NCBI GenBank assembly: GCA_013139395.1
Contig: WTAX01000066.1
Span: 1 to 11,746, forward strand
Direction of reading: 5' to 3'
DNA length: 11,746 nt
From: Gammaproteobacteria bacterium
GTDB taxonomy: Bacteria; Pseudomonadota; Gammaproteobacteria; GRL18
The translations under genes and the position numbers were made by a program. Below, piece after piece: positions 2,555 to 11,395 of this stretch. The notes under the pieces were generated by a model. The model was not told where the DNA came from. It saw only the letters and a program-made list of their open reading frames with translations, and made no database searches. Position 1 is the first letter of the stretch. Every line of letters starts with the position of its first letter.

Positions 2555-3772
2555 TTAAAATAATTTGAATGGATGAACCGTCACCATATCGCCAATTTCA
2601 ACTGATTCACTCTCATGTCCCAGATAAATGAAACAATTACCTTTACTCATGGAACTTAAGACACCTGAGCCCTGCTTTCCAGTGCTTTTAACTACCATCC
2701 CATGTTCAGGGTCCTGCTCTATAATACCACGTTGAATTTCTGTTCTGCCGGGCAGCTTGCGTAATTGAGTCATACAGGGGATTTGTAAATCAATGAGTTC
2801 TATATCTTTGTGCCCCATTAATTGTTTAATAGCAGGTCTGACGAAATACATGAACGTAACCATAACAGCAACAGGATTACCTGGAAGCCCAAAAAAATGA
2901 GCATTATTGAACTGTCCAAAGGTTAATGGTCGACCAGGTTTTAAATGTAATTTATTGAAATAAGTTTGCCCTGATTCATCAAGACATTGTTTTATATAAT
3001 CTGCATCACCGACTGAAACACCACCAGATGTGATCAGCATATCAGCTTCACTTGCACCTTGAGTCAGAGCCTGAGTAATAGTTTCTTTATTATCGGGGAT
3101 AACCCCCATATCAATCACATCAACTCCCAGATCTTTTAACATGCCGCTAATAGTATAGCGATTACTATCATATATTTGACTGCCTTCAAGCGCTTCACCA
3201 ATACTGCGGATTTCATCACCACTGGAAAAAACAGCGACTCTGATGTTACGTTTTACTTTTAACGAAGCTAAGCCTAAAGAAGCTAAAACACCCAGTTGCG
3301 CCGCACCGACAACTTGCCCTGACGCTAACACGACACTGTCTTTAGCAATATCTTCACCAATATTTCTTACATTTTGTCCAGGCTTAATCTGTGAGCCAAT
3401 TTCAATGGCATTACCTTTAACAGACACTTTTTCCTGTTCAATGACGGTATCAGCATTAGCTGGCATCTTTGCTCCCGTCATAATCCGAATACATTCACCT
3501 TTTTCTATCACGCCAGCAAAAGGTGTACCGGCAAAAGAAGTGCCTATATTTTTTAACGCCTTAGTCCCGTCGCCTGGAATATCATCTGAATTAAAGGCAT
3601 AACCATCCATTGCCGAATTTTGATAGACAGGAACATTCATTGGTGAAATCACATCTTCTGCTAATGTTTTACCTAAAGCATTGGGTAAAATAATTGTTTG
3701 TTGATTTATAAGAGATGTGATCTGATGTTTGATAATAGTTGATGCTTCATCAACACTAATAGTATTGTTCAT
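2555..3772 (-). CDS. moeA: MoeA, molybdopterin molybdenum/tungsten transferase
   Basis: MoeA inserts the metal oxyanion into adenylylated molybdopterin, the last common step of Mo and W cofactor synthesis, in the cytoplasm. The 405 residues match the usual length. The N-terminal MoeA domain (about 5-170) includes SAMDGYAF (53-60). The molybdopterin-binding domain (about 177-315) shows the hallmark TSGGVSVGDADY (248-259), LKPGRPLTFG (277-286) and GLPGNPVAVMV (295-305). The C-terminal beta domain follows (about 325-400). The ATG at 3772 follows GGAAAG at close spacing. The gene starts 55 bases after tupC ends on the same strand, so it is probably the last gene of the cluster. Placement beside tungstate transport and AOR genes suggests a tungsten-dedicated copy; this is inference, as the residues do not reveal metal preference. 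Confidence 0.95.
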   Translation of the reverse strand: MNNTISVDEASTIIKHQITSLINQQTIILPNALGKTLAEDVISPMNVPVYQNSAMDGYAFNSDDIPGDGTKALKNIGTSFAGTPFAGVIEKGECIRIMTGAKMPANADTVIEQEKVSVKGNAIEIGSQIKPGQNVRNIGEDIAKDSVVLASGQVVGAAQLGVLASLGLASLKVKRNIRVAVFSSGDEIRSIGEALEGSQIYDSNRYTISGMLKDLGVDVIDMGVIPDNKETITQALTQGASEADMLITSGGVSVGDADYIKQCLDESGQTYFNKLHLKPGRPLTFGQFNNAHFFGLPGNPVAVMVTFMYFVRPAIKQLMGHKDIELIDLQIPCMTQLRKLPGRTEIQRGIIEQDPEHGMVVKSTGKQGSGVLSSMSKGNCFIYLGHESESVEIGDMVTVHPFKLF

Positions 3773-3821: not shown

Positions 3822-3841
3822 AAAATCCTATATGGGATTTT
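3822..3841 (-). terminator. Weak terminator-like hairpin across the tupC stop codon
   Basis: AAAATCC (3822-3828) and GGATTTT (3835-3841) can form a 7-base stem with a 6-base loop. On the minus strand the stem runs into six Ts in total. The stem is AT-rich and overlaps the tupC stop codon, so at best it would reduce read-through into moeA. It could equally be a chance palindrome. Confidence 0.25.
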
Positions 3842-4556
3842 CATTCATTTTACCCTGATAGAGATGCAGATGACGATTAAATGCCAATTCACCACAATGA
3901 GGATCATGACTGGTTAAAACAATGCCGATATTATCTTCTTTTAGCTGATTGATAGTATCGTAGGTACTATGACGAGAATGTTTGTCCATATTGGCAAAAG
4001 GCTCATCCAATAGCATAAAAGCAGGTTTAATCACCCATGAACGGGCAATAGCTACTCGTTGTTTTTCGCCACCGGATAATGCATAACTATTTCGTTTGCT
4101 CAAATGATCCAGAGCAACTACTTTAAGTGCCTCATTTACCTTATGTGCAATTTCATCTTTGGCTAATTTTTTATGCATTAGACCATAGGCGACATTGTCG
4201 TACACGGTACCGCTAAAAAGATAAGGTGTTTGGTGTAAATAACAAAAATGCTTGCGTAAAAAAAATTTTTGAGAGAACCAGAATTTTGATTTTGATTGCG
4301 CAGCCTCTGATGCCTTTTGTTGATAGGTAATGGAGAAATTATCAGGTTTTAGTAAACCTGACAGCACTTTTAAAAATGTGGATTTCCCCGAACCATTCTG
4401 GCCTGTCATCAAAACAAAATGATTAGATGATAATTCAACATTGAGATCATTTAAAATCAGTTTTTTATTCCTTACAAAAAGAATATTATTTAATATAAAA
4501 TTATGAATATATTGTTTAGAAGTGATTAAATTATCATCATGAACTTTCTTTGTCAT
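3828..4556 (-). CDS. tupC: TupC-like tungstate ABC transporter ATPase
   Basis: This 242-residue protein is a complete ABC ATPase that would power tungstate uptake with TupB and TupA. Walker A is GQNGSGKST (52-60), the Q-loop glutamine is Q109 (YLHQTPYLF), the signature is LSGGEKQR (160-167), Walker B is FMLLDEP (180-186) and the switch histidine is H217 (LTSHD). The first 25 residues before the nucleotide-binding fold are rather long. There is no C-terminal TOBE/mop domain, in keeping with Tup-type rather than ModC-type ATPases. Its ATG overlaps the tupB stop (ATGA, 4 bases), typical of coupled translation. The substrate is inferred from TupA and TupB, since ATPases alone do not show it. Confidence 0.9.
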   Translation of the reverse strand: MTKKVHDDNLITSKQYIHNFILNNILFVRNKKLILNDLNVELSSNHFVLMTGQNGSGKSTFLKVLSGLLKPDNFSITYQQKASEAAQSKSKFWFSQKFFLRKHFCYLHQTPYLFSGTVYDNVAYGLMHKKLAKDEIAHKVNEALKVVALDHLSKRNSYALSGGEKQRVAIARSWVIKPAFMLLDEPFANMDKHSRHSTYDTINQLKEDNIGIVLTSHDPHCGELAFNRHLHLYQGKMNENPI

Positions 4557-5254
4557 GAAACCATTTCCCCTCTACCCTGAATAATGCTTAAAAACAAATT
4601 TAGTACTAATGCCATTAATAATAACACTAATCCCAGAGCAATACCTTGTGCAAAACTCCCCTTACTTGTTTCCAGTGCAATGGCTGTTGGGATATTGCGA
4701 GTATAGTTTAAAATGTTACCTCCAACCATCATAGAACTGCCGACTTCAGCAATGATTCGACCAAAACCAGCAATAATGGCCGCCATCAGGCCAAATCGAG
4801 CTTCCTTCAATACCGTTAAAATAGAATAAAAAGTGGGTGCACCCAATGTAATTGCAGTTTCCCATACACGCCTGTCGGTTGATTGTAAGCTGGCATGACT
4901 AAGGGCAACTAATAACGGAAAGCATAAGACTATTTGGCCCATTATCATCGCATCCTGCGTAAATAATAATTTTAAGTCACCCATAGGACCGGCACGGGAT
5001 AATAATAAATAGAGCGTTAAGCCAACTACTACCGCTGGAATTGACATGGCAGTATTAAACAGGGCAATTAGTAATTGACGTCCGGGAAAACGAAAATAGG
5101 CCAGACAAAAAGCAAAAATAATAGCAATAGGTGCTGAAAATATAATGGCTCGAAGTGAAACACTAAATGATAAAAATATAATGGTCCAGAGATCAGGATC
5201 AGCACTGATTAACAAAGAAATAGCCTGAGTTGTTGCCAGAGATAAATCACTCAT
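4553..5254 (-). CDS. tupB: TupB-like tungstate ABC transporter permease
   Basis: This is the inner-membrane permease of the tungstate importer, with about five or six hydrophobic helices. The cytoplasmic coupling loop that docks on the ATPase is visible: ETAITLGAP, then a helix, then AAIIAGFGRIIAEVGSSMMV and GGNI. That block is typical of TupB/ModB-like permeases. I chose the ATG at 5254 (MSDLSLATTQ, 233 residues), 8 bases after the upstream gene stops. A TTG at 5284 in the same frame would add ten residues and overlap the moeB end by 22 bases, but has no ribosome site. A GGAAG lies about 12 bases before the ATG, a little far. The stop overlaps the tupC start by 4 bases. Confidence 0.9.
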   Translation of the reverse strand: MSDLSLATTQAISLLISADPDLWTIIFLSFSVSLRAIIFSAPIAIIFAFCLAYFRFPGRQLLIALFNTAMSIPAVVVGLTLYLLLSRAGPMGDLKLLFTQDAMIMGQIVLCFPLLVALSHASLQSTDRRVWETAITLGAPTFYSILTVLKEARFGLMAAIIAGFGRIIAEVGSSMMVGGNILNYTRNIPTAIALETSKGSFAQGIALGLVLLLMALVLNLFLSIIQGRGEMVS

Positions 5255-5262
5255 ATTATTTA

Positions 5263-6012
5263 TTAACTTCCACACACTGAACAATTAGGATTTTTGGGTA
5301 ACTGCATACTTTCCCATTGCATACTTAAAGCATCAAATAACAATACTCTTCCTATGAGAGAATCACCTTTATTGATAATAAGTTTGATGACTTCAATGGC
5401 CTGCATACTGCCCAACACGCCAACAACAGGTGACAAGATACCACTATTGCTGCAATTTTGCCTTGAATCATTACGTCCGCCATAGAAACAATGGTAACAG
5501 GGACTGTCAGGATGACCACAATGATAAACAGATATTTGCCCCTCCCAGCGTATTACAGCAGCAGAGACCAGCCATTTTTTATATGTGACGCAGGCCTGAT
5601 TGATTTCAAAGCGGGTAGTTAAATTATCAGTACAATCAACGACAATATCAGCAGCAGCAACTTGTGATAATAATAACTCACCATTGAGTTTATCATTAAT
5701 CGGGTTAATCTTAATATGCGAATTAATATTAATCATGCGCTGATAACAGGAACTCACTTTACTATGCCCAATTCCCTGTTCATCATGGGCAATTTGACGT
5801 TGTAAATTATTAAGCTCAACCTTATCATGATCAGCAATTGTTATTTCACCAACACCACTGGCTGCCAGATAAAGAGCAACGGGTGAACCAAGCCCACCTA
5901 CACCGATAATTAACACTTTAGCGGATAATAATTTTTCTTGTCCCTGGACATCAACTTCAGGTAGTAAAATATGACGGCTATAACGTGACAATTCATTATC
6001 AGAAAAAACCAC
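5263..6012 (-). CDS. moeB: MoeB/ThiF-family E1-like adenylyltransferase
   Basis: Enzymes of this family use ATP to adenylate the C-terminal Gly-Gly of a small ubiquitin-fold sulfur carrier (MoaD or ThiS), which then becomes a thiocarboxylate. The 249 residues equal the usual MoeB length. Seen here: the ATP loop GVGGLGS (37-43), acidic D61 and D63, LNNLQRQ (68-74) with its arginine finger, VDCTDN (125-130) with the magnesium aspartate, a zinc site from CYHC (172-175) and CSVC (244-247), and a conserved cysteine at 187. The start is a GTG at 6012 sharing one base with the TAG of the preceding gene, with a G-rich ribosome site inside that gene's last codons. The likely partner is the MoaD-like protein two genes upstream. 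The 122-residue protein directly before it also ends in Gly-Gly. MoeB versus ThiF cannot be told from sequence alone; the context favours pterin cofactor work. Confidence 0.9.
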   Translation of the reverse strand: MVFSDNELSRYSRHILLPEVDVQGQEKLLSAKVLIIGVGGLGSPVALYLAASGVGEITIADHDKVELNNLQRQIAHDEQGIGHSKVSSCYQRMININSHIKINPINDKLNGELLLSQVAAADIVVDCTDNLTTRFEINQACVTYKKWLVSAAVIRWEGQISVYHCGHPDSPCYHCFYGGRNDSRQNCSNSGILSPVVGVLGSMQAIEVIKLIINKGDSLIGRVLLFDALSMQWESMQLPKNPNCSVCGS

Positions 6013-6380
6013 TAGCCACCCCCGCGTTGAAATGATAAATCAAATTTTTTAAAAAATTGTTTATATTGCTCTTGAGTATAATTTATAAAATGAAAATTAA
6101 CGAATAAACGGGGAATAATTAAAGAACCAATGATTCTATCTGATTGCTCAGAAAAAGTGATTATCAGCTGAGTAATATTTGGGGATGTTGAAGTTGCAGC
6201 TGTACTATCGGCCAACAGCTTTATACTATTTCCACTAATGGAATAATTGAGTTCTCCGGCAAACAGTTTAAATTGATTAAGAAATTCAAAACGGCTATAG
6301 CCCATTTCTTTATCAATAATAAATTCACCAGCAGACGTATTAGCCACCTGCAACTTCCGGCCATAAAGCCAGCGTATCAT
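6012..6380 (-). CDS. Unrecognised 122-residue AOR-cluster protein with a Gly-Gly-Gly tail
   Basis: I do not recognise this protein. It has alternating hydrophobic strands (for example FEFLNQFKLFAGELNYSI, TQLIITFSEQ and GSLIIPRLFVNFHFINY), a short charged helix (EQYKQFFKKFD) and ends in FQRGGG. There is no signal peptide and no metal-binding motif. The last codons (GGT GGC, stop) are the same as those of the MoaD-like gene before it, and the next gene is an E1 enzyme that acts on Gly-Gly tails. It could be a second E1 substrate, a scaffold or an assembly factor for the tungsten cofactor. The start is uncertain: the ATG at 6380 overlaps the MoaD-like gene by 41 bases. A GTG at 6347 would give 111 residues and overlap by only 8 bases. 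Gly-rich codons also double as a ribosome site for moeB, a simpler reason for the tail. Confidence 0.75.
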   Translation of the reverse strand: MIRWLYGRKLQVANTSAGEFIIDKEMGYSRFEFLNQFKLFAGELNYSISGNSIKLLADSTAATSTSPNITQLIITFSEQSDRIIGSLIIPRLFVNFHFINYTQEQYKQFFKKFDLSFQRGGG

Positions 6381-6591
6381 TTTCTACCAGAATCGTGGAA
6401 TCTCTATCGGGCGGGCAAATAAAAACGCCATTTAAAATAACCAGATAAGCTTCTTCACGATCAATTTTAAAAAAATCAATGACTTGATGTACACTCATCT
6501 TTTCATTAATTTCAACCTTAGCGGCATTAGCTTTGGCGTGAGCTGGCAGATGCCGTGCTAAACCGGCAAAACATTTAAGTGTGATATTCAT
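6340..6591 (-). CDS. moaD: MoaD-like ubiquitin-fold sulfur carrier
   Basis: MoaD-type carriers hold sulfur as a C-terminal thiocarboxylate and deliver it to the pterin dithiolene. This one has 83 residues, the beta-grasp pattern (MNITLKCFAGLARHLP at the start, VHQVIDFF helix, AYLVILNGVFI, then LVENDTLALWPEVAGG) and the required Gly-Gly end. The ATG at 6591 is chosen because AAGGG stands just before it. A TTG at 6615 would add eight residues without a ribosome site. It starts 34 bases after aorC ends. Being inside the AOR cluster with its own E1 gene, it is probably dedicated to the tungsten cofactor; the AOR clusters of some betaproteobacteria are also reported to carry a MoaD-like gene. Confidence 0.88.
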   Translation of the reverse strand: MNITLKCFAGLARHLPAHAKANAAKVEINEKMSVHQVIDFFKIDREEAYLVILNGVFICPPDRDSTILVENDTLALWPEVAGG

Positions 6592-6625: not shown

Positions 6626-7882
6626 TTATACTTGAGAGAGTGATGTTGCTAAATAAGCTTCCATTAATCGACTTGGATTTTCCATAAGTCGATCTTTCCA
6701 AATGCCTAATTTAACTTTACCACGAATTAAACCACGAACAACACCAATATGTTGTGTATGACCCAAACTGCTAATGCCGACCAGGCAATCATCTTTAAAC
6801 TGGATATTTAAATAACGATAATTATCTTTATCCAGTAAAATACTCTGTTCTCCGCCTGGTACTCCCATCCATTGACCAAAAGAGGTAGAGATCAAGCCCA
6901 TAGTATCTAAAATATTCATATTGATACTACCCTGATGAATATTTTTGTTATCGTTTACCATATTGATTGCGGCAATTCGACCATGTTCTACAGCAGTGGG
7001 TTGAATGGCCTGGACATGCTTAGTTTGATCAGAAAAATCTAAAGCCTGTGCCACGTCACCGGAAGCATAAACATTATCAATATTGGTTTGTAAAAATTCA
7101 TTGACAATAATACCCTGATCCACAGCAATGCCGGAGTTTTCAAGAAAAGTGATGTTAGATTTAACGCCTGTAGCACATATCACTAAGTCAGCAGCTAACG
7201 ACTCAGCATCTTTTAACTCAACATTCAAAGCATGGTCACTATTATTAGTTTCGTTAATCGCCGTCACTTGCTGAGATGTTAATATGGTAATACCTTTAGA
7301 CTCACACCAGGACTTTAGTAAGCCGCCAGCGGTATCATCCATCATTCTGGGCACCATACGATCACCCATTTCTACCACCGTCAGCTTAACGCCGCGTTTA
7401 AGTAATGATTGAAGAATGATACAACCAATAAAACCAGCCCCCATAAGCACAACTGAAGAACCAGAAACCGCTTTATCAGCAATATTTCGTGCATCTTCGA
7501 GGGTCCAGCAATTATGAACATTGCACGAATCAATACCAGCAATAGGAGGTGAAATGGCAGATGCACCCGTTGCAATTAAAAGCTTATCATAAGCCATAGT
7601 TTCATTATTCGCTAATACAATATTATTTTGTGCAGTATCAACTTTAGTAACGAGTTGACTGACAATATCTATATTATTATTGCTAAAATAATTAGCATCA
7701 TGGCGTAAATAAGTACCACTTTGAGTAATTTTTTCTTCCAAAAAATAAGGGATAGCCATACGGGAATATGGTGGTTCGATTTGACCTGTCACTAGACTGA
7801 TTTGAGCATCTTGATCCATTTTACGAATCGTTTCACAGGCAATAACCCCAGATGGGCCAGCACCTACAATAATATAATGCAT
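6626..7882 (-). CDS. aorC: AorC-like FAD/NADH-binding subunit of aldehyde oxidoreductase
   Basis: A 418-residue pyridine nucleotide-disulfide oxidoreductase fold. The FAD Rossmann motif is VGAGPSG (6-12), the second dinucleotide motif is MGAGFIG (147-153) with acidic E171 at the end of the next strand, which favours NADH over NADPH, and YASGDVA (272-278) is the FAD closing motif. There is no redox CxxC pair near residue 40 of the glutathione-reductase type, so disulfide chemistry is unlikely. In the three-subunit AOR of Aromatoleum aromaticum the equivalent subunit passes electrons between the iron-sulfur chain and NAD+; the same job is inferred here. The ATG at 7882 follows GGAAG at good spacing. 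It is separated from aorB by 254 bases of palindromic repeats, the widest gap in the cluster. Confidence 0.88.
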   Translation of the reverse strand: MHYIIVGAGPSGVIACETIRKMDQDAQISLVTGQIEPPYSRMAIPYFLEEKITQSGTYLRHDANYFSNNNIDIVSQLVTKVDTAQNNIVLANNETMAYDKLLIATGASAISPPIAGIDSCNVHNCWTLEDARNIADKAVSGSSVVLMGAGFIGCIILQSLLKRGVKLTVVEMGDRMVPRMMDDTAGGLLKSWCESKGITILTSQQVTAINETNNSDHALNVELKDAESLAADLVICATGVKSNITFLENSGIAVDQGIIVNEFLQTNIDNVYASGDVAQALDFSDQTKHVQAIQPTAVEHGRIAAINMVNDNKNIHQGSINMNILDTMGLISTSFGQWMGVPGGEQSILLDKDNYRYLNIQFKDDCLVGISSLGHTQHIGVVRGLIRGKVKLGIWKDRLMENPSRLMEAYLATSLSQV

Positions 7883-7980: not shown

Positions 7981-8140
7981 CTAGTACTTAAACACATTAA
8001 TTTTGACTATTTTCAATAGGTAGGGGCGAATTTATTCGCCTTTTGATGGATACAAATCCAAGCTTTAGGCGAATAAATTCGCCCCTACAAAAAGACATAA
8101 AATTTTTCAATCAGTCATAATTAATGTGTTCTGGTACTAG
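7981..8140. repeat. 160-base palindromic element, MITE- or REP-like, ending on the aorB stop
   Basis: The outer arms (7981-8007 and 8114-8140) match at 23 of 27 bases and both begin with CTAGTAC, then share AACACATTAATT and TGAC. Inner arms (8020-8040 and 8068-8088) are a perfect 21-base inverted repeat with core GGGGCGAATTTATTCGCC. The tip is another small hairpin (TGGAT, ACAA, ATCCA at 8047-8060). The core reads as an interspersed palindrome of the kind found in many copies in some gammaproteobacteria; copy number here is unknown. The right arm contains the TAG stop of aorB (8137-8139). There is no long T-run after the stem on the minus strand, so it is not a classic terminator. It may stabilise the upstream tupA-aorAB message or be a non-autonomous mobile element. 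Confidence 0.85.
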
Positions 8141-9993
8141 TCTTTAAGACCCAGACGTTTACGTGTTTCATCAGTTGGTACACCATCACTACTCCAACCA
8201 CGTAACTCATAATATTCAGGCATCATTTCTTCTACTTTTGAAACAATTCCTTTAGCAGGTCCCGTTTTAGCCGCTTCTGTACGTAAACGTTCAGGTAATG
8301 TGTCATCAGCACTGGTAATACCTGCTTTTAGATTAAAGTCACGTTCCAGATTCCAGATACGCTCACCTACCTCCACCAGACGCTCTGCAGTCCAGCCGCC
8401 GCCACAAGCCGCTTCAACCTGTGGTGCAATATTATCTAAACTCCAGGCAAAGGTTGTAAATAAACATAAGCCTGCTGAATCAACTGCTCCAGTTGCATCC
8501 TGAAATGCTTTAACTAAACCCGGTTTTCCTTCAGCAGTTAATGGATCAGTCTTCTCAGGAATACCTAATACTTCTGATGCAACGGTATAACCCCTGACGT
8601 GACAAGCACCACGATTAGAAGTAGCGTAGTTTAAACCAATACCCTGAATGCCACGTGGATCATAGGCAGGAAATTCCTGACCTTTCACCGTCATTGACAG
8701 TTCTGGTCGACCATATTTTTCACATAGACGTTTTGAACCCAATGCTAAATCCTGACCAAAGCCTTCACCAGAGGCTACCCATTCAACAGCTTTTGTCAGT
8801 GCGACAGCATTACCAAAATTAAATTCAATCCCGCCGGTTTGTTCTTTTGTCAGTACGCCGTCTTCATACATTTCCATTGCTGCTGCAACAGTTGCACCAA
8901 AGGTAATGGGATCAAAACCTTCTTCATTACAAACAAAATTAACATAAGTTAAAGCATCTAAATCATCAACACCATTATCTGCACCTAAGGCCCAGGCGGC
9001 TTCATATTCTAAACCACCAGAATTGCCCCAGTATTTTGATTTATTTTCAACGCTGAAATGTCCCTGATCGATGGTAGAAATACGACCACAGGCAATCGTA
9101 CAGCCAAAACAAGCGGCATTGGTTGTTAAGTTAGGACGTCCATCTGATTTTCTGGGTTCATGCATGGCTTCACCAGAAATCGCATGGGCACCATCAAACT
9201 GAACCTCTTTCATATTATTAGTGGGTAAGGCTCCGATTTCATTAATAACATTCATTAATACCTGAGTGCCATAGGCTGGTAAGCCCTGACCCGTCACAGG
9301 ATTTTCTGCCAGAACTGCTTTGCCTTCATTAACGGCCTTCATAAAACCCGCAGGATCAGCTAGATTACCAACACCAAGAGTTCCACGTATGGCAACAGCC
9401 TTCAGATTTTTTGATGCCATAACAGTACCAACCCCGGAACGCCCGGCAGCACGGTGTAAGTCATTAACAATACCGGCATAAAAACAACCGTTCTCAGCAG
9501 GACGGCCCACTGCGGCAATACGTAACAATGGATCTTGATGTTTATTATGTAACCATTCATCTGTATTCCAGACTGATGTACCCCAGATATCATCTGCGGC
9601 CATTAATTCAGCATGATCATTTTCGATATACAGATAAACAGGGGTGGGTGATTTTCCTTCAAAAATAACCATATCCCAACCAGCACTTTTCATCTCTGCA
9701 CCAATAAAACCACCTGAATTTGAACAGGCAATACAATTGGTTAAAGGGCCTTTAGTCACAACCACATAGCGTCCACCTGTTGCAGCCATTGTTCCAGTCA
9801 AGGGACCGGTTGCCATGATCATTTTATTTTCAGGACTTAAAGGATCACAAGCCGGATCAATTTCTTCTGAAAGGTATTTTGATGCTAAACCACGAGAACC
9901 TAAATAATCATTCTTCCACTCTTCATTAAGAGCCTCAGTTGTGATTTCACCAGTGGTTAAATTAACACGTAATAATTTTCCTGCCCAAGACAT
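8137..9993 (-). CDS. aorB: AorB, tungsten-containing aldehyde:ferredoxin oxidoreductase catalytic subunit
   Basis: The catalytic subunit oxidises aldehydes to carboxylic acids at a tungsten held by two pterins, next to one [4Fe-4S] cluster, in the cytoplasm. The 618 residues match the AOR family. The N-terminal domain carries GSRGLASKYL (32-41) and GPLTGTMAATGGRYVVVTKG (63-82). The cluster ligands are C295, C298, C302 (CFGCTIAC) and C510 (DSAGLCLF). Pterin and substrate motifs are GLEYEAAWALG (327-337), DPRGIQGIGLNYATSNRGAC (445-464) and the family HVRG stretch (465-468). Nothing essential looks missing. The ATG at 9993 follows a strong AAAGGAGA. It starts 12 bases after aorA stops, so AorA is its obvious electron partner. 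The exact aldehyde cannot be read from sequence, and tungsten rather than molybdenum is inferred from family and the Tup genes. Confidence 0.96.
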   Translation of the reverse strand: MSWAGKLLRVNLTTGEITTEALNEEWKNDYLGSRGLASKYLSEEIDPACDPLSPENKMIMATGPLTGTMAATGGRYVVVTKGPLTNCIACSNSGGFIGAEMKSAGWDMVIFEGKSPTPVYLYIENDHAELMAADDIWGTSVWNTDEWLHNKHQDPLLRIAAVGRPAENGCFYAGIVNDLHRAAGRSGVGTVMASKNLKAVAIRGTLGVGNLADPAGFMKAVNEGKAVLAENPVTGQGLPAYGTQVLMNVINEIGALPTNNMKEVQFDGAHAISGEAMHEPRKSDGRPNLTTNAACFGCTIACGRISTIDQGHFSVENKSKYWGNSGGLEYEAAWALGADNGVDDLDALTYVNFVCNEEGFDPITFGATVAAAMEMYEDGVLTKEQTGGIEFNFGNAVALTKAVEWVASGEGFGQDLALGSKRLCEKYGRPELSMTVKGQEFPAYDPRGIQGIGLNYATSNRGACHVRGYTVASEVLGIPEKTDPLTAEGKPGLVKAFQDATGAVDSAGLCLFTTFAWSLDNIAPQVEAACGGGWTAERLVEVGERIWNLERDFNLKAGITSADDTLPERLRTEAAKTGPAKGIVSKVEEMMPEYYELRGWSSDGVPTDETRKRLGLKD

Positions 9994-9999
9994 AGTCGT

Positions 10000-10007
10000 T
10001 CTCCTTT
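10000..10007 (-). promoter_or_regulatory. Strong aorB ribosome binding site overlapping the aorA stop
   Basis: On the minus strand AAAGGAGA ends 6 bases before the aorB ATG and is the best Shine-Dalgarno match in the cluster. The last two bases of the aorA stop codon TAA are its first two bases. Ribosomes ending aorA would therefore release on the aorB start region, favouring coupled, high expression of the catalytic subunit. Confidence 0.7.
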
Positions 10008-10485
10008 AAGCGTTGGTTGATGGTGAGTTATCAGTTTGAGTCGCCCATTGGCGCATTTTTTCCATTCCTGTTTGATCAGCATCAACATAGGTAATGGCTT
10101 GTGTTGGACAAGCCGAAACACACTTGGGATCACCATCACAAAGATCACATTTGATCACTTTGCCGGTGCTGTGGTTGTAATTAATCGTGCCAAAAGGACA
10201 GGAAATTGTACACACTTTACAGCCAACACAATTATTGTCATTAACCACTTTGGCACCAGTTATTGGATTCAAACTGATGGCATCAACGGGACATGCCTGT
10301 TGACACCATGCATCAGAACATTGTGTACAGGTATAGGGTACAAAGCGTCCTTCCTGATGGAAAGTAAAGACTTTTATACGGGACTTTGAAGGGTTGAATA
10401 CACCTTCATTTTCATATGAGCAAGCCAGCTCACATTGTAAACATCCAGTACATTTATCTGGATTAATAACAAGGGACTTTTCCAT
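10006..10485 (-). CDS. aorA: AorA-like ferredoxin subunit with four [4Fe-4S] clusters
   Basis: A 159-residue electron-transfer protein with sixteen cysteines in four sets: 12, 15, 18, 22; 53, 56, 61, 65; 86, 89, 92, 96; and 113, 116, 122, 126. This is the HycB/DmsB-like arrangement, able to hold four [4Fe-4S] clusters and form a wire between the tungsten site in AorB and the FAD in AorC. There is no signal peptide, so it is cytoplasmic. The C-terminal tail (about 135-159) is polar and carries no cysteines. The ATG at 10485 follows GGAGA at good spacing. It starts 52 bases after tupA stops and ends 12 bases before aorB. In characterised three-subunit AORs the equivalent small subunit is stacked on the large one; that arrangement is inferred here. 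Confidence 0.93.
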   Translation of the reverse strand: MEKSLVINPDKCTGCLQCELACSYENEGVFNPSKSRIKVFTFHQEGRFVPYTCTQCSDAWCQQACPVDAISLNPITGAKVVNDNNCVGCKVCTISCPFGTINYNHSTGKVIKCDLCDGDPKCVSACPTQAITYVDADQTGMEKMRQWATQTDNSPSTNA

Positions 10486-10537: not shown

Positions 10538-11395
10538 TTATTTACCAGCATAGCCGTCTACTGATGGTATAAATAATACCTGACCGTCTTTTTTATACTG
10601 CCCGATTAATTGCTGACCCTGTTTAGAGGTCAGCCAGTTAATAAGTATATTAGCACCATTGATATTAATGTCATTATAGCGCTCAGGATTTACAGCAATA
10701 ATTCCATAGGGATTAAATAAAAAGGCATCCCCCTGATATAAGAGTTTTAAATGTGTTTTATCTTTATAACTTAGCCAGGTGCCACGATCTGTCAGTGTAT
10801 AAGCACCCAGTTCGTCAGCTATTTGAATGGCTTTACCCATACCCTGTCCTATTTCCCGATACCACCTTCCTTTTGGAATAACATCCGCAGAAGCCCATAT
10901 CTTTTTTTCTTTTTTATGTGTACCGGAATCATCACCACGAGATATAAACAGACTTTCTTTTTGTTGAATGCTTTGAAATACAGTCTGTGTTGAGCTGCTA
11001 TTACCTATTGAGGCAGGATCTTCAGCAGGTCCAATAATAACAAAGTCATTGTACATCACAGCATGGCGCTTAACACCGTAGCCTTTTTTAATGAATTGTT
11101 TTTCTGCATCGAGGGCATGAACCAGCAGTACGTCAACATCCCCTTCTTTTCCCATTCTCAATGCTTTTCCAGTACCCACAGCAATAACATGGACTTTATA
11201 GCCGCTTTCATTTTCAAAATAGGGTAATAAATGCTGTAGTAAACCGGAATTTTCGGTGCTGGTGGTAGTGGCTAAACGAATAATATTATTTTTTAATAAA
11301 GCGCTGTCAGGAGATGAACTTTGCGCTGCAGCAGCAATATTTAAAAACAAAAAGATTGAGGAAAAATATGTTATAAAAAATAAATATTTTATCAA
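10538..11395 (-). CDS. tupA: TupA, periplasmic tungstate-binding protein
   Basis: The 285-residue protein begins with a signal peptide (about 1-24, hydrophobic FFITYFSSIFLFLNIAAAA). It carries the TupA hallmark LATTTSTENSGLL (41-53; TTTS at 43-46), whose Thr/Ser residues bind the oxyanion. GTGKALRMGKEGDVDVLLVH (74-93) and SRGDDSGTHKKE (152-163) are also typical of TupA. These separate it from ModA (molybdate) and WtpA. The start is a TTG at 11395. No ATG lies upstream in frame, a stop lies three codons before, and the first internal ATG (codon 81) would lose the signal and the binding loop. The ribosome site is weak, which may keep expression low. Unlike the usual tupABC order, its permease and ATPase are about 5 kb away at the other end of the same cluster. 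Confidence 0.93.
   Translation of the reverse strand: MIKYLFFITYFSSIFLFLNIAAAAQSSSPDSALLKNNIIRLATTTSTENSGLLQHLLPYFENESGYKVHVIAVGTGKALRMGKEGDVDVLLVHALDAEKQFIKKGYGVKRHAVMYNDFVIIGPAEDPASIGNSSSTQTVFQSIQQKESLFISRGDDSGTHKKEKKIWASADVIPKGRWYREIGQGMGKAIQIADELGAYTLTDRGTWLSYKDKTHLKLLYQGDAFLFNPYGIIAVNPERYNDININGANILINWLTSKQGQQLIGQYKKDGQVLFIPSVDGYAGK

Follow-up and report, generated by a model that had tools for sequence, protein, structure and literature searches.

To our knowledge, the ubiquitin fold is common to the well-studied sulfur carriers on which MoeB/ThiF-type enzymes act as loading enzymes. For tungsten aldehyde oxidoreductase (AOR), the locus described in Aromatoleum aromaticum is aorABCDE, in which the gene for AorE (WP_041646407) comes fifth, after those encoding the FeS, AOR, FAD, and MoaD-like proteins (PMC6365974). 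According to the accessible text of that report, neither AorD nor AorE was detected in the purified enzyme. In the portion of a second report that is available (PMC9295118), co-expression of aorD and aorE together increased AOR activity from 4.5 to 16 U/mg, and to 85 U/mg with added tungsten; the tungsten content in the same series (base, aorDE, aorDE with added tungsten) was 1.06, 0.39, and 1.52. Per tungsten, these figures correspond to about 4, 41, and 56 U/mg. The roughly tenfold increase in activity per tungsten with aorDE points to cofactor quality more than to metal loading and suggests that the cofactor was better made, not that more metal was present.

The stretch of DNA analyzed here (the window) comprises 11,746 nucleotides of a gammaproteobacterial contig (WTAX01000066.1). 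It contains a three-subunit AOR cluster composed of genes for the FeS, AOR, and FAD subunits, a MoaD-like protein, a protein designated X, and a MoeB-type E1 (Table 1). All cluster genes are located on the minus strand and are accompanied by transport-like genes and by the gene for MoeA. The periplasmic binding protein is probably a tungstate-binding TupA-like protein, and a TupBC-like role is probable for the permease and ATPase genes. The Tup names were assigned from context, as was the permease, together with its hydrophobic sequence; this protein resembles an ABC permease (TupB-like) and has no Pfam match at E≤1. The E1 displays the motifs GVGGLG and DCTDN and two CxxC motifs.

Table 1. 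Features of the AOR cluster in the window.
Feature	Position	Strand	Basis or remark
MoeA, metal insertion into molybdopterin	2555..3772	-	Pfam MoeA_N, MoCF_biosynth, MoeA_C
ATPase gene (probable TupC-like)	3828-4556	-	Pfam ABC_tran 8.8e-28
Permease gene (probable TupB-like)	4553-5284	-	Hydrophobic; between E1 and ATPase genes
MoeB/ThiF-type E1	5263..6012	-	Pfam ThiF 1.2e-76; NCBIfam MoeB PRK05690 above cut-off
X C-terminal tail, CGC GGG GGT GGC TAG = Arg-Gly-Gly-Gly-stop	6012..6026	-	Sequence
SD-like sequence GGGGGTGG for overlapping moeB, inside X tail codons	6016-6023	-	
Protein X, 122-codon ORF	6012..6380	-	ORF call; no Pfam/NCBIfam family
MoaD-like beta-grasp carrier	6340..6591	-	Ends Val-Ala-Gly-Gly; Pfam ThiS E 4.7e-6
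FAD/NAD(P) oxidoreductase, AorC/WorN-like subunit	6626..7882	-	Pfam Pyr_redox_2 5.7e-52
Tungsten AOR large subunit, AorB/WorL-like	8137..9993	-	Pfam AFOR_C 7.2e-141, AFOR_N 1.3e-75
Polyferredoxin subunit, AorA/WorS-like	10006..10485	-	Pfam Fer4 families
Periplasmic binding protein (probably TupA-like)	10538..11395	-	Pfam PBP_like_2 1.3e-42

An initial sequence-only reading of the window had pointed out that the MoaD-like gene and its neighbor both end in Gly-Gly codons and are directly followed by an E1 gene. This was confirmed: the moaD gene ends in GTT GCA GGT GGC TAA (Val-Ala-Gly-Gly), the GTG start codon of moeB overlaps the TAG stop codon of X, and GGTGGCTA is present at both stops, the MoaD/X and X/E1 overlaps forming near-identical junctions. 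The shared Gly-Gly tail was retained, with the correction that the tail of X consists of three glycines following Arg/Lys rather than two. X had also been described as an unrecognized protein of 122 residues. The open reading frame exists and is indeed unrecognized, but its true start is probably located after the first ATG (position 6380), which falls within moaD. Since the sequence common to the relatives of X starts mainly at about KEMGYSR, translation probably initiates at GTG 6347 (within the Gly-Gly codons of MoaD; 111 residues) or at ATG 6305 (97 residues).

Neither Pfam nor NCBIfam gave a match for the 122-residue sequence (E≤1), and comparison of X and its profile with Pfam, NCBIfam, and PDB sequences returned nothing usable. 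PDB matches to designed OR proteins were short and were rejected as not meaningful. Protein P0055 had no match among plasmids, and a scan of genome contigs with X alone gave 61 stretches fitting the pattern, none of which was confirmed. X itself had no ThiS match in Pfam, and ThiS was absent among the families listed (25 of 30) for 78 relatives. Together with a different predicted fold, described below, this supports the earlier view that X has only the tail in common with MoaD.

Gamma- and alphaproteobacteria were found to encode relatives of X, in most cases immediately downstream of moaD in operons for three-subunit AORs. A protein search returned 22 proteins, and 118 were obtained with a profile (the window X being counted in both). 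Inspection of genome contigs revealed 113 confirmed places in Granulosicoccaceae, Sedimenticola, Rhodospirillales, Azospirillum, Entotheonella, and other taxa. The best 80 of these 113 loci were kept for neighborhood counts: the MoaD gene was directly upstream of X in 75, and the stretch included an AOR subunit in 77 and a relative of the FAD subunit in 76. The order MoaD-FeS-AOR-FAD-X also occurs (L037, L087), indicating that X does not depend on an adjoining MoaD gene. Among the same 80 loci, moeB came immediately after X and in the same orientation in 3, a count that leaves aside two loci with moeB on the X strand beyond the distance limits (L073, L081). It was on the opposite strand in 15, at 1.0–1.4 kb in 14 of them, and was not in the stretch in 60, some of these stretches being short. 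The opposite-strand arrangement, 1.0–1.4 kb past X, is found in a group of loci of which many are from marine gammaproteobacteria (L050, L052, L053, L057, L058, L061–L063, L065, L067–L070, and L072).

Several loci display unusual arrangements. In G102 (L162, 3481-3912), the X and MoaD genes are convergent, X being encoded on the opposite strand; its RGGG end is nevertheless kept. In G322, X is duplicated in tandem (L126, 1932-2261 and 2265-2558), both GGG tails being kept (RGGG and KGGG). Two AOR clusters (L127 and L157) each contain two MoaD-like genes, one devoid of a Gly-Gly tail and the other with PPVAGG. The tail-less frames (L127 3315-3644, also L153 155-502, and L157 3372-3623) end in SVWPKIR or IWPQC, and this partner may have a role of its own. 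Two MoaD-like frames are present in L154 as well, and a protein of 245 residues (P0197) consists of an FAD-reductase domain followed by a fused MoaD-like domain ending in PPIAGG.

The final Gly-Gly was present in 22/22 proteins of the first search and in 116/118 proteins of the wider profile search, although, of the tail glycines, only G120 and G122 were invariant in an alignment of 78 of the 118. Departures were limited to the two remaining database relatives, which end in KGLG, and to one of 53 Thermus-type fusions (RGGA). The 80/80 tails of the genome-contig scan are uninformative because the search pattern contained FQRGGG. Since the earlier patterns and profiles included the tail, a profile lacking the last ten residues was used to search 370 genomes of the class. 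This tail-blind search gave an X match in 42 genomes, and all 39 undecayed genes with the 3' end present ended in [RK]GGG (38 genomes, one of them with a tandem pair). The gene of G139 was counted among the 39, the first third of X being missing or in another frame. Left outside the tail count were two genes cut by contig ends before the tail (G106, G336) and two broken or decayed genes in genomes without AOR (G100, G211). Candidates missed by the tail-blind search were dropped, namely weak matches (E 0.002–0.004) in 646-residue frames (G078, G198) and a fragment (G276). No undecayed X gene without the tail was found among the 42 matches in the 370 genomes, and the proposal of a Gly-Gly tail thus survived a search for homologues lacking it. 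With tail-including profiles, 47 distinct X genes were recovered, 33 ending in RGGG and 14 in KGGG. These conservation counts rule out chance as the origin of the tail.

The distribution of X follows that of AOR. AFOR_C was detected (E≤1e-10) in 53 of the 370 genomes, 40 with X and 13 without. It was carried by 40/42 X-positive versus 13/328 X-negative genomes (Fisher 9e-40, kinship being ignored). The two X-positive genomes lacking AOR (G100, G211) contain only broken remnants of X; these are located near a moeB gene (L139 2509-2816 and L159 2394-2522) and suggest decay following loss of the tungsten enzyme. Among the AOR-positive genomes without X, four have distant AORs only (G073, G202, G300, G330), and in six the contig stops ahead of MoaD, at it, or a short distance past it (G017, G109, G259, G266, G290, G302). 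The remaining three (G248, G288, G315) harbor a class III-type AOR and MoaD, with no X beside MoaD and none found elsewhere in the genome. The association of X with class III-type AOR is thus strong, although not absolute.

AlphaFold2 models of two different relatives (pLDDT 82.6 and 88.5) predicted the order strand-helix-four strands-helix, corresponding to a KA1/SRPBCC-like fold. The strand order that defines the beta-grasp fold is different. X is therefore predicted not to adopt the beta-grasp fold, a conclusion drawn from the predicted strand order, fold searches alone being insufficient. The comparison with beta-grasp proteins proposed in the sequence-only reading was accordingly negative for both models. 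A buried C-terminus, which would have counted against the proposal, was seen in neither model: the chain finishes, after the last helix, in a low-confidence stretch of about 3–5 loose residues. The tail of MoaD and ThiS is extended and longer than this predicted loose tail.

The Pfam model of DUF1952 (PF09189) gave no match for X at E≤1 and matched one of 78 relatives (E 0.24). Profile alignment of X with DUF1952 domains by hhalign gave a probability of 93.2 (P 2.9e-7 over 46 columns), and of 75.4 (P 2.4e-5) after removal of the last 6 residues. The top Foldseek match of the window model was the DUF1952 domain of PDB 1v8c. A distant relationship between X and DUF1952 is thus likely, membership of this family not being claimed. 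In the Thermus MoaD-related protein (PDB 1v8c), the DUF1952 domain is located behind MoaD and ends in RGGG, as does X, and the two have in common the pattern K/R-V/I-G-S-L-x-I-P-x-L-x-V. In Thermus and Oceanithermus, MoaD and DUF1952 form one fused protein, whereas nearly all of the proteobacterial X proteins seen have a gene of their own; a MoaD-X fusion was also found in P0071. Of 56 fusion-length proteins, three looked frameshifted (P0130, P0147, P0154) and were left out of the counts. The internal MoaD motif P-[PAE]-[VI]-A-G-G was kept in all 53 remaining fusions, 50 of which end in RGGG and three in RDGG, RGGA, or RAGG. A control genome, Thermus composti, had matches for both DUF1952 and AFOR_C. 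The accessible part of a published table of AOR-MoaD neighborhoods includes 'Tth', taken here as Thermus thermophilus (PMC1779556). Neither DUF1952 nor TTHA0341 was encountered in any paper found by literature searches, which largely excluded subscription papers.

Seven genomes of the window genus encode a MoeB outside the AOR cluster, and six of them have a cluster copy in the comparison. In a FastTree phylogeny of 37 sequences (midpoint rooting, interpreted for topology alone), the nine cluster E1s of the genus formed one clade, apart from the seven non-cluster MoeBs. Grouped with this clade were the cluster E1s of Sedimenticola and of G090, as well as the sole MoeB-type copy of G017; the cluster-borne E1s of G162, Bse_30, and a marine group fell outside. 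By this topology, the window E1 is a paralogue specific to the AOR cluster, and the second MoeB of the genus is a different one. A survey of E1 and MoaE covered 56 genomes, 47 with X and 9 with a class III-type AOR and without X. A ThiF-family protein (E≤1e-20) was present in 55 of the 56. None was detected at this threshold in G232 (L116, L219), a genome scored as 100% complete that encodes MoaE and an X ending in KGGG; either the E1 is missing from the assembly or the genome is a real exception. Several genomes have only one ThiF-family protein, and this single E1 would have to serve ThiS, MoaD, and possibly X.

X is almost certainly a maturation factor for AOR with a functional tail. Of what was initially considered (E1 substrate, conjugation target, or assembly factor), the link to the tungsten cofactor and AOR maturation is supported; a beta-grasp fold is not. 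The reading that we favor, at slightly better than even odds, is that X is a dedicated maturation factor of three-subunit (class III) AORs acting as an E1-loaded sulfur carrier for the tungsten cofactor, a second carrier beside the MoaD-like protein. In this reading, the free Arg/Lys-Gly-Gly-Gly tail is a working part of X and is most likely used like that of MoaD. The MoeB-type E1 would adenylate the terminal glycine, and the C-terminal carboxylate would be converted to a thiocarboxylate. X, working one-to-one with the MoaD-like protein, would then deliver sulfur while the tungsten bis-molybdopterin cofactor is being assembled, possibly as dithiolene sulfur or as a ligand on tungsten. That X is an E1 substrate of any kind appears reasonably probable; that its cargo is sulfur is an evenly balanced proposal. 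According to the models, X most likely carries a ubiquitin-like tail on a different, KA1/SRPBCC-like fold. Support comes from conservation of the tail at the protein level, AOR dependence, the position next to MoaD, the MoaD-X fusions, the predicted non-beta-grasp fold, and the AOR-cluster E1 in the genus; the activity per tungsten gained with aorDE and the CBASS cGAS precedent for ubiquitin-like conjugation of a protein without the ubiquitin fold also favor this reading. The counter-evidence to a second carrier comprises the short tail leaving a helix, the genome G232, the three AOR-positive genomes G248, G288, and G315, and the KGLG, RDGG, RGGA, and RAGG ends. E1 loading is further opposed by the usual location of moeB away from X and by the cluster E1s that fall outside the window clade.

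X could instead be an adaptor or insertion chaperone, its GGG tail not being activated but docking, as the MoaD tail does, into a partner (MoaE, the AOR apo-enzyme, or the E1) to guide cofactor assembly or insertion. We consider this unlikely, since a docking peptide would rarely be so strict at its last residue across sequences that are about 30% identical, and since the MoaD-X fusions keep both Gly-Gly motifs. The adaptor role would account for the short tail leaving a helix in both models, for invariant positions unlike a catalytic set, and for the presence of X in G232 without a detected E1; KA1/SRPBCC-like folds are, moreover, usually binding domains.

Conjugation of the E1-activated tail of X to lysines of AOR or of a maturation enzyme, in the manner of a ubiquitin-like modifier, is improbable. 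The absence of AorD and AorE from purified AOR, in the accessible text (PMC6365974), does not favor it, and no E2, E3, or JAB protease was found among the ten window proteins scanned. The tail logic would be the same as in ubiquitin-like proteins, those of archaea functioning in both sulfur transfer and conjugation according to the available text (PMC11323500), and conjugation of cGAS offers a precedent in the part of the report that could be consulted (PMC10097602).

The sequence-only reading had raised the counter-explanation that the Gly codons serve solely for ribosome binding at the start of moeB, which overlaps X, GGGGGTGG being at Shine-Dalgarno distance from its GTG codon. moeB was directly downstream of 9/47 distinct X genes and was not detected there for the other 38 (G001 being cut at this point by a contig end), all of which keep [RK]GGG. 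The three glycines are specified by 28 codon triplets among the 47 genes, and each of the four Gly codons is used at every position. Thus, the tail is not merely a moeB ribosome site, and this explanation, now very improbable, was rejected as the main reason for a tail that persists in the absence of moeB and when moeB lies at another place. The first Gly codon ends in a purine in 6/9 moeB-adjacent genes versus 8/38 others. Since the moeB-adjacent genes look codon-tuned, both readings are partly true: the glycines are kept for the protein and some codon choice may serve the ribosome site, the bases of GGGGGTGG doubling, as a possible secondary use in the window genus, as a Shine-Dalgarno sequence for moeB. 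Replacement of MoaE by X as the catalytic half of molybdopterin synthase was likewise rejected as very improbable because MoaE is present in 52/56 surveyed genomes (including 8/9 of the window genus) and X has no match to Pfam MoaE (PF02391), although MoaE was not found in the window's own genome (79% complete), G085, G102, and G139.

Returning to the second-carrier reading, its boldest form is that X represents a family of E1-activated sulfur carriers that would be the first in metal-cofactor synthesis without a beta-grasp fold, paired one-to-one with MoaD, served by a shared or dedicated E1, and providing the sulfur that makes the tungsten cofactor competent. We put this forward tentatively, as somewhat doubtful. 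If true, the tail rather than the fold would define an E1 substrate in cofactor synthesis, DUF1952 would gain a role, and the effect of aorDE on AOR activity would be explained. It could also help in producing tungsten enzymes for acid reduction and biofuel work.

The position of X after the FeS-AOR-FAD-MoaD genes, in the window and in the scan loci, matches the order of aorABCDE, and X is probably AorE, the putative AOR maturation factor of Aromatoleum, an equation drawn from gene order only. The accessible text describes AorE as similar to MoaD, a resemblance that X lacks. WorX, a ThiS-like protein encoded beside AOR and predicted to help in pterin biosynthesis, corresponds to the MoaD-like gene and not to X, and the available part of that report does not mention a second tailed protein (PMC13328260). 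Literature searches, largely without subscription papers, returned no description of a second Gly-Gly protein for AOR. In CBASS, the E1 role is fulfilled by Cap2, an E1-E2 fusion. In the accessible portions of two reports, the cGAS/CD-NTase of CBASS is a protein without the ubiquitin fold that participates in ubiquitin-like conjugation (PMC10097602, PMC10449767). The likeness of the cGAS/Cap2 pair to X is this ubiquitin-like use of a non-ubiquitin-fold protein; the contexts differ, defense and conjugation in CBASS versus cofactor synthesis for X. X resembles the sulfur carriers MoaD and ThiS in its terminal Gly-Gly, its location beside an E1, and its context of cofactor biosynthesis. It differs in its predicted architecture: MoaD and ThiS are beta-grasp proteins, whereas X is predicted to consist of strand-helix-four strands-helix, with the tail leaving from a helix.
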